Source: Pseudomonas sp. B21-015 (GTDB taxonomy: Bacteria > Pseudomonadota > Gammaproteobacteria > Pseudomonadales > Pseudomonadaceae). From it: a stretch of DNA of 64,000 nucleotides. Shown in pieces: positions 16,597 through 21,587 of this stretch. Each line of letters begins with the position of its first letter. Within the stretch, counting starts at the first letter, position 1. The translations under genes and the position numbers were made by a program. Location of the stretch: assembly GCF_024749285.1 (NCBI RefSeq), contig NZ_CP087196.1, forward strand, positions 1,736,001-1,800,000, read 5' to 3'. The notes below the pieces were generated by a model, which had not been told where the DNA came from, did not search any database, and saw nothing but the letters and a program-made list of their open reading frames with translations.

Positions 16597-16701
16597 TTTA
16601 ACAGCGGTGTTTAAAACACATCTCCAGACACTCACTCAGGCTACACATCCTTGCGCCGCTGCCTACGACTACGCCAGAATCCGCCGGCTTGTGCGCCTGG
16701 G

Positions 16702-16906
16702 GTGTGGGCTCTATCGTTTGCCGGTCGCTGACGAATCAGCGATCGGGTTTAGCGATCCGATCCCATACACAGACGCAAAAGCGCCCAAGTTTTGCTTGCA
16801 GTTCTTATTGCCTGCAATTCGCGTAATGGTGGCTGTGCGTGGGAGACCTTCGAGTCTACCCGGGGTTTCTGTGACCCGGATCGCTAACCTGCGTACAGCC
16901 GCCACC
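16702..16906 (+). ncRNA. Candidate structured leader RNA of the DUF6124-type gene
   Basis: Consecutive perfect or near-perfect helices are visible. P1 pairs GTGTGGG (16702-16708) with CCC-AT-ACAC (16762-16770) and encloses an 11-bp hairpin CCGGTCGCTGA/TCAGCGATCGG with a CGAA loop (16721-16746). P2 is GCAAAA/TTTTGC (16775-16795). P3 is TTGCAG/CTGCAA (16796-16817). P4 pairs GGTGGC-TGTGCG (16828-16839) with TGCGTACA-GCC-GCCACC ending at 16906 and encloses two GC-rich hairpins. A further CGTGG/CCACG pair (16928-16949) touches the ribosome site of the gene at 16959. Structure is seen; function is inferred. Confidence 0.5.
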
Positions 16907-16958
16907 TTTACTTGTTTAGCGATAGGTCGTGGCGGCTCAACCAACCACGGAGCTTCAC

Positions 16959-17318
16959 ATGTTCAAGATCACGCCCAACCCACCGGAAACCGACGACGTT
17001 TCTCCGTACGAAACCCCCGACTCCAAAAAACTCAACGAAGCCGCCGACCGCGCCCTCGATTACTACCTCAAACCGGTCATTCCCAAAGAAACTCCGCGCA
17101 AACCCAGCACCATCTACCATGTCGGCGCCGAGGTCGATAACGAGACCCTGCTGGTCAACGCCTGCGAATCCCTGGCGTCAGCGAGCGTGATGCTCAGTGA
17201 GTTCGCCGGGTTGATGGACATACCCCATCGCAACATGATGTTGGGGATTCAACAGGTGGTCATGCTGGGTGAGTTGGCAGTCAATCGGGTGCTGGATAAC
17301 TACGATCCACAAGGCTAG
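16959..17318 (+). CDS. DUF6124 (formerly DUF3077)-type small protein, function unknown
   Basis: I recognise this as a small-protein family common in Pseudomonas; the domain number is from memory. The 119-residue product begins MFKITPNPPETDDVSPYETP, has a Pro/Lys-rich linker around residues 45-55, and a helical C-terminal half with VNACESLASASVMLSEFAG and GIQQVVMLGELAVNRVLD. No signal peptide or membrane helix. The frame extends 30 nt upstream, but the GGAG at 16949-16952 fits the ATG at 16959. It is flanked by two family C REP doublets and preceded by a folded leader, so it looks like a self-contained unit. Confidence 0.7.
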   Translation: MFKITPNPPETDDVSPYETPDSKKLNEAADRALDYYLKPVIPKETPRKPSTIYHVGAEVDNETLLVNACESLASASVMLSEFAGLMDIPHRNMMLGIQQVVMLGELAVNRVLDNYDPQG

Positions 17319-21483: not shown

Positions 21484-21587
21484 GATCGTTCCCACGCTCC
21501 GCGTGGGAATGCCGCCATGGACGCTCCGCGTCCACTGTGACGCAGAGCGTCACGGGATGCATTCCCACGCGGAGCATGGGAACGATC
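21484..21587. repeat. REP doublet, family C
   Basis: GATCGTTCCCACGCTCCGCG ... CGCGGAGCATGGGAACGATC between the convergent CoA-transferase and sprT genes. No other terminator was seen. Confidence 0.9.

Follow-up and report, generated by a model that had tools for sequence, protein, structure and literature searches.

A C4-type antisense RNA cassette ahead of a DUF6124 gene, a candidate self-silencing unit in a multi-copy chromosomal set of Pseudomonas

A small gene preceded by a long, strongly structured leader raises the question of what the RNA does and whether it acts on that gene. Such a locus lies in the 64,000-nucleotide stretch of the Pseudomonas sp. B21-015 chromosome analysed here (the window), for which an initial annotation had noted a chain of helices and offered several readings, among them a small-RNA element. 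The helix chain is real: positions 16702-16958 reach a folding energy of -109.4 kcal/mol, whereas 200 shuffles averaged -84.0 (sd 4.4, z = -5.8) and none did as well. Frames of 222 aa (+ strand) and 77 aa (- strand) in a mechanical list of open reading frames overlap the leader.

The leader matched two Rfam families above their curated cut-offs. The C4 antisense RNA model (RF01695) matched 16822-16909 with 59.7 bits against a cut-off of 45, over model positions 1-87 of 87, and just 5' of it the c4-a1b1 model (RF03163) matched 16711-16763 (49.4 bits, cut-off 46.7). C4 is a textbook phage RNA, known from P1 and P7. The small-RNA proposal was thus correct, the element being a C4 antisense RNA together with its own targets, and what had been described as a multi-branch domain ending GCCACC is the C4 RNA itself, which adopts the three-stem C4 shape when folded alone (-43.2 kcal/mol). 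Covariation agrees with this fold: among 39 paralogues, 15 of the 20 predicted C4 pairs are changed on both sides at least once, in an alignment that does not resolve the third C4 stem, where loop length varies. The gene behind the leader encodes a DUF6124 protein (PF19619, 72.3 bits against a cut-off of 27), the only Pfam match of that gene. The features of the cassette are as follows.

16640..16720, + strand: upstream block with the putative promoter (-35 TTGTGC at 16689-16694, 17 nt, -10 TATCGT at 16712-16717)
16724..16743, + strand: first hairpin, an 8-bp stem in the fold, part of the c4-a1b1 match (RF03163 and fold); putative 5' end of the transcript
16749..16759, + strand: a1 target TTAGCGATCCG, 11-nt complement of C4 a' (pairing)
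16822..16909, + strand: C4 antisense RNA, Rfam span (RF01695)
16828..16906, + strand: predicted mature C4 RNA, 79 nt (P1 analogy: GGT start, GCCACC end)
16862..16877, + strand: third C4 hairpin with loop b', whose partner is the ribosome-site region b2 (duplex -12.5 kcal/mol)
16877..16887, + strand: C4 a' CGGATCGCTAA, with 11 contiguous pairs to a1 and 8 to a2
16897..16905, + strand: C4 3' arm AGCCGCCAC, pairing with 16929-16937 in competition with the C4 outer stem
16916..16923, + strand: a2 target TTAGCGAT, 8 contiguous pairs with a'
16929..16937, + strand: alternative partner GTGGCGGCT of the C4 3' arm, 9 pairs, in the minimum-energy fold; function putative
16941..16955, + strand: b2 target including the ribosome site GGAG at 16949-16952 (sequence and pairing)
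16959..17318, + strand: DUF6124 gene, 119 aa, presumed silenced target (PF19619)

In the same tool, P1 also scores above both cut-offs (68.8 bits for C4, 51 for c4-a1b1), and its c4-icd-ant annotation shares with the window the order a1, b1, C4, a2, b2, start codon. Both C4 RNAs start with GGT, end with GCCACC and pair with a2 and the ribosome-site region; in the window these end marks fall at 16828 (GGT) and 16904-16906 (ACC), the cleavage itself being predicted. The ATG lies 49 nt beyond the C4 model in the window and 47 nt beyond it in P1. The two differ downstream, where P1 and P7 carry icd-ant and the window DUF6124, and in their setting: the window cassette, unlike P1, is chromosomal, has about 39 copies in its genome and shows different antisense types at one site in relatives.

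We regard a self-silencing gene cassette of the P1 immI type as the best explanation and a highly probable one, with the silencing resting on analogy. A single transcript from one promoter would run from a1/b1 through the C4 RNA and a2/b2 into the DUF6124 gene. Its cleavage by RNase P at 16827/16828 would free a C4 RNA of about 79 nt whose a' would pair with a2 and whose b' loop would pair with the ribosome site, so that the gene would be transcribed and hardly translated. About 39 such cassettes in this genome, with largely private antisense-target pairs, would stand before DUF6124 and several other small-protein genes, and release might come from decoy pairing by a1/b1 or another C4 transcript, or from failed processing. 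The family membership, layout, self-complementarity, paralogue set and different blocks at one site are read directly from the sequences. The promoter, RNase P processing and translational block are by contrast carried over from work on P1, Acinetobacter baumannii and Salmonella Gifsy-1. In P1, RNase P frees C4 from its leader, C4 blocks the ribosome site and a' sets the specificity (passages of PMC5320573). The same passages describe 21 Group 1 C4-like sRNAs in A. baumannii AB5075, for the authors a first large group in one genome, which begin at a GG site in RNA-seq, are apparently processed and vary in their a' loops. That start site makes processing of the window cassette plausible. Both genomes hold many C4-like RNAs, but in those passages no linked self-target gene is assigned in A. 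baumannii, whereas those of the window's genome come with their own target and an adjoining small gene.

Observations that count against self-silencing include weak own b' pairing, own pairs that are not always the best ones, a whole-leader fold other than C4, the lack of a terminator-like stretch, four DUF6124 genes of this genome with no visible C4 trace, and the lack of a promoter in a scan. The last came from a consensus promoter scan; we nevertheless infer that TTGTGC-17-TATCGT (16689-16717) is the promoter of the cassette, and by eye many of the 39 cassettes show similar hexamers upstream of the first hairpin at a constant spacing. As to termination, the window has no intrinsic terminator after a1/b1, its longest T run being 4. 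T runs of at least 5 occur in 10 of the 39 cassettes, in 7 of these after a GGCG arm, and a terminator-like stretch between a1/b1 and C4 is visible by eye in P1 and in about 7 of the 39, the window having none.

The pairing between each antisense RNA and its own target was assessed by scoring the a' and b' of every C4 against the a2 and ribosome-site region of every cassette, for 38 cassettes of the window's own genome (L042, which has no start codon, was excluded). Own pairs averaged -27.5 kcal/mol and the others -19.9 (z = -13.8, 0 of 20,000 permutations), and the own pair came first in 12 of the 38 rows and 17 of the 38 columns, at a median rank of 2. The set is largely, but not strictly, private, and cross-talk is possible; the own pairs of L052 and L058 rank about 20th. 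The window cassette pairs more weakly than most, its sum ranking third by row and seventh by column among the 38, and its b'-ribosome-site duplex fifth by row and seventh by column; the longest b' run with the ribosome-site region is 8 contiguous pairs, four of them G-U. The upstream targets gave an excess as well, both for a' with the a1 region (z = -12.6, 0 of 20,000, in the 38 cassettes) and for b' with the b1 region (z = -3.9, 2 of 20,000). Own-pair excess was also found in 20 cassettes from 20 other Pseudomonas genomes, top scorers that are not independent and include the near-identical orthologues L082-L084 and L086 (z = -9.0, 0 of 20,000), and in 19 cassettes from other genera or families (z = -9.6, 0 of 20,000). 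Among 80 DUF6124 loci including the window, with C4 recognised by a lenient pattern instead of Rfam, it reached z = -16.5 (0 of 10,000); an 81st, L190, had been dropped because it has no C4 3' end in register and its match starts at residue 12. These permutations control composition and only partly shared descent, and kinship among cassettes inflates some of the tests.

Two further readings, a cis-acting switch and action in trans, are compatible with self-silencing, and the confidences given here therefore do not sum to one. Folded whole, the leader takes a minimum-energy structure different from the C4 fold, in which a1 is paired to a' and 16929-16937 to the C4 3' arm. Instead of, or beside, trans antisense action, the C4 3' arm and a' might switch between folding into C4 and folding onto 16929-16937 and a1, translation then being set by the fold that the one transcript takes up, a reading we judge rather unlikely. 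In the own genome 20 of 38 cassettes have an alternative arm of at least 7 pairs, compared with 7 in a reversed control, and among the 20 other Pseudomonas cassettes 10 do, compared with 4. Its own-pair excess, however, is not clear in the own genome (z = -1.6) or in the 20 other Pseudomonas cassettes (z = 0.2); in other genera it is present (z = -3.4, 16 of 20,000), although there 15 of 19 cassettes reach 7 pairs against 12 of 19 reversed controls. We keep the alternative fold as a possible second regulatory layer.

A precedent for such a switch is the IsrK locus of Salmonella Gifsy-1 (RF01394), for which a two-fold structural switch was shown; its structure A pairs the middle part of IsrK with the downstream orf45, and the alternative fold of the window leader resembles this arrangement (passages of PMC4825925). 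Like the window, according to the same passages, IsrK combines a leader RNA, a downstream-pairing segment and a downstream gene that is translationally silent, in the window presumably so. The isrK model nevertheless scores below cut-off in the window (28.4 of 50 bits), which counts against the switch, and the window lacks a terminator that would give a short IsrK; on these two grounds an IsrK-like attenuator was rejected for the window. Those passages also describe a stable RNA, STnc1160, downstream of IsrK, which the authors compare with P4 CI. The CI RNA with seqA and seqC is described as, like C4, a processed antisense RNA between two targets (passages of PMC4825925); unlike the C4 model, CI acts by premature transcription termination.

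It is less probable still that C4 acts mainly in trans on other cassettes or host mRNAs, with the self-match a leftover of origin, a view proposed for the A. baumannii C4-like RNAs. The median own-target rank of 2 means that some cassettes could hit a neighbour, and in A. baumannii the authors regarded host targets as potentially the likelier ones (passages of PMC5320573). Own pairing nonetheless holds on average in every set tested, including alleles of different types at one site, which favours the self-silencing cassette.

The cassette is one of many. In its own genome (6.59 Mb, one contig) we found 39 scattered C4 matches, 38 of them over cut-off and the closest two 13.6 kb apart, together with 37 a1/b1 matches (15 over cut-off). 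The gene had been called an orphan, which the 29 DUF6124 matches in this genome refute. By hand comparison of coordinates, 21 of the 29 DUF6124 genes lie directly behind a C4 match, and four more follow C4 relics (half a C4, or a1/b1 alone); before the remaining four, one of which has an internal stop and one of which is truncated, no C4 trace was visible. The relic-preceded genes, at 5543044 and 4152134 (L062, L063), 1347935 (L064) and 5646652 (L060), are candidates for decaying cassettes or for targets of another C4. Among 119 Pseudomonas genomes, 110 have C4 matches (109 over cut-off), 73 have at least 10 by our own count and 17 at least 33, with up to 33 candidates scored per genome, and DUF6124 is present in 95. 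Some C4-rich genomes hold few DUF6124 genes, such as G009 (at least 33 C4 matches, 2 DUF6124) and G086 (24 and 3), so other targets fill the remainder. Across the phylum, 62 of 398 genomes drawn have C4, with up to 10 candidates scored in each.

Other C4 cassettes precede a DUF3077 gene (L022), a Bro-N gene (L027), a 52-residue protein (L021) and further small proteins. When 10 C4-cassette proteins were scanned, three gave Pfam matches over cut-off (DUF3077, Bro-N and DUF6124) and seven did not, among them the L021 protein; NCBIfam returned zero matches for 7 proteins. DUF6124 itself has 1342 relatives at E <= 0.001. An AlphaFold2 model of the protein shows a helical hairpin, with a mean pLDDT of 76 and block means of 89-95 across residues 61-110, for which the best Foldseek hit in the PDB had E = 1.2; searched by sequence against solved structures, the protein gave one chance-level match (E = 0.81). 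Neither fold nor sequence pointed to a toxic small protein of the type I toxin-antitoxin kind. In profile comparison DUF6124 matched DUF3077 at E = 2.9e-4 (probability 40%), and a third target group matched DUF6124 at E = 0.13 and DUF3077 at E = 0.099. One superfamily for all C4 targets was rejected, the plausible link being that between DUF6124 and DUF3077 only.

Several further observations concern these targets. A family of about 52-57 residues (SKIRA...RMALAALHANSSL...), to which the L021 protein belongs, is a frequent C4 target on chromosomes (L021, L072-L075, L085, L088, L089, L091, L103) and on viral contigs (L209, L214, L215, L217, L220, L222, L225). A second family of about 90 aa (RIRxxTQxLEN) follows DUF6124 or a bare a1/b1 in L059, L066 and L067, and its relatives lie directly behind C4 in L052 and L054-L056. 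In L023 the last part of the gene behind C4 is weakly QslA-like, at 21.3 bits against a cut-off of 25. Outside Pseudomonas, the gene behind the C4 leader of L107 (G399) resembles by eye what we take to be a SymE-type toxin gene.

Given the phage origin of the known C4 RNAs of P1 and P7, the cassette might be a decaying prophage immunity remnant without present function. Phages and plasmids of Pseudomonas have L021-like C4 leaders, in 36 of 50,697 phage records and 50 of 72,556 plasmids, some cassettes of the own genome are half-deleted, and by eye a DUF6124-like gene lies behind C4 in 4 of 24 viral contigs with the exact C4 pattern. (These four IMG/VR contigs, L207, L213, L216 and L224, may be prophage or host flank.) Against a remnant speak the 39 copies at least 13 kb apart, the pairing kept on average and the 16640-16680 block, 95-100% identical in 12 alleles, and a protein search found DUF6124 in only 1 of 50,697 phage records, at the record edge, and in 0 of 72,556 plasmids, on which DUF6124 as phage or plasmid cargo was also rejected; we consider a remnant very improbable. 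A riboswitch or other small-molecule leader, as the initial annotation had entertained from the strong structure before a single gene, can practically be dismissed: C4 and c4-a1b1 are the sole Rfam matches in the window, with no riboswitch family at cut-off, and the stems are conserved while the variable loops pair with the gene's own leader, unlike a ligand pocket.

The window cassette is flanked by a histidine kinase gene and an AraC-type gene (named by eye from translations), a position that allowed comparison with relatives found without the use of DUF6124. When 38 related genomes were searched with the AraC protein, 14 of the genus, the window's own included, gave a match of 74-100% identity. 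In the fetched regions of 10 of the other 13, the kinase gene adjoins the AraC gene with 31-1266 bases between them; L122-L124, with no kinase gene beside the AraC gene, were excluded. All 10 are empty, with no DUF6124 at E <= 1e-4 and no C4 at the gathering score. Conversely, a scan seeded with DUF6124, and therefore biased towards carriers, kept 80 loci in named Pseudomonas, of 325 encoding a relative, and 12 of these 80 lie between the same kinase and AraC genes. The suggestion of a mobile cassette holds in part: presence at the site is patchy and antisense types recur at different sites, but the REP doublets that flank the cassette on both sides do not define a unit. The two-sided REP pattern was found in the window and L127 only, of 13 same-site loci; REPs are one-sided in L128 and L138 and absent by pattern in 9 of the 13, and a REP-bounded mobile unit was rejected. 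The REP doublets around the cassette are incidental. A further doublet of the same kind lies at window positions 21488-21583, and the empty site of L116 (1296-2562) carries, by eye, a REP-containing unit of about 200 bp repeated about six times in tandem.

The 13 loci at this site (the 12 and the window) carry six antisense types. Compared with the window, L128, L129, L138 and L140 are 91-95% identical at the kinase end, 88-90% in the gene and 91-94% at the AraC end, against 59-82% in C4 and 61-70% in the stretch after it; over seven same-site alleles the corresponding ranges are 59-82% for C4, 74-90% for the gene and 86-95% for the flanks. Over positions 16640-16680 L127 is 95% identical and each of the remaining 11 alleles 98-100%, and over 16680-16720, with the putative promoter hexamers, identity is 78-98%; in the seven alleles of other types, identity over 16760-16920, taken in 40-base steps, lies between 32% and 92%. 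L180 shares its antisense type with the window, yet its stretch before C4 has diverged (48-68%). Genes at the same site can be nearly identical behind different types (L180/L185 95.1%, L128/L129 96.5%, L201/L204 91.7%).

Differences in type at one site extend beyond this one. Requiring both flanks where long enough, the 80 loci fall into 36 sites and 32 types, with 144 same-site pairs that differ in type, 41 that agree and 76 pairs that share a type at different sites; this strict version was used, looser clustering, for which one flank sufficed, giving 22 sites, at which 199 pairs differed in type. On a gene tree of 48 rows we counted 21 site changes (10 states; mean of 200 shuffles 32.2, lowest 29) and 30 type changes (16 states; mean 38.1, lowest 33), two counts that, with different state numbers, are not strictly comparable. 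Both lie below the shuffles, so the gene carries signal of site and of type, neither perfectly. From these patterns the C4 block and its matching target have probably been exchanged between cassettes by recombination, and both block exchange and whole-cassette exchange seem to occur.

The locus had also been put forward as an undescribed system. This does not stand for the RNA family: the window RNA belongs to the known C4 family. Among the papers listed by our literature search, with subscription journals mostly outside its scope, there was no genome-wide, self-targeting, type-swapping C4 set, and nothing on DUF6124, C4-DUF6124 cassettes or C4-type exchange. In the portions of the literature retrieved, Weinberg 2010 lists c4 and c4-a1b1, papers on Xylella and Burkholderia report a few C4 matches, the c4 RNA passage of a 2025 review concerns P1/P7, and DUF3077 appears as a pseudogene in P. 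putida. The search is weak evidence for novelty, and the multi-copy, self-targeting, type-swapping chromosomal set seems new.

Most DUF6124 genes of this genome sit behind an RNA best known from phages; if the silencing drawn from P1 holds, it would take a special signal for DUF6124 to be made. The type exchange leads us to a tentative reading in which dozens of near-orthogonal, antisense-silenced small-protein cassettes with swappable specificity form a diversifying repertoire on Pseudomonas chromosomes, akin to heteroimmunity or recognition. If so, incoming DNA, phage or kin of matching type would either be silenced or titrate away the resident C4, freeing the protein. The chromosomal sample contained none of the 24 viral C4 loops, which speaks against the immunity reading, the sample being small. 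The 39 natural antisense/target pairs and the same-site alleles with different pairs make RNA specificity and its evolution directly testable.

Identical loop signatures, taken from pattern-cut loops in which the window's own type is shortened, occur in 1 of 838 within-genome pairs and 90 of 5948 between-genome pairs (shuffle mean 11.3, 0 of 5000 as low). Exclusion of like types within a genome was set aside as an explanation, because shared descent of orthologous sites accounts for some of the deficit. The sole identical within-genome pair, L195 and L197 of P. frederiksbergensis 36C6, falls in one flank cluster and is perhaps a recent duplication.
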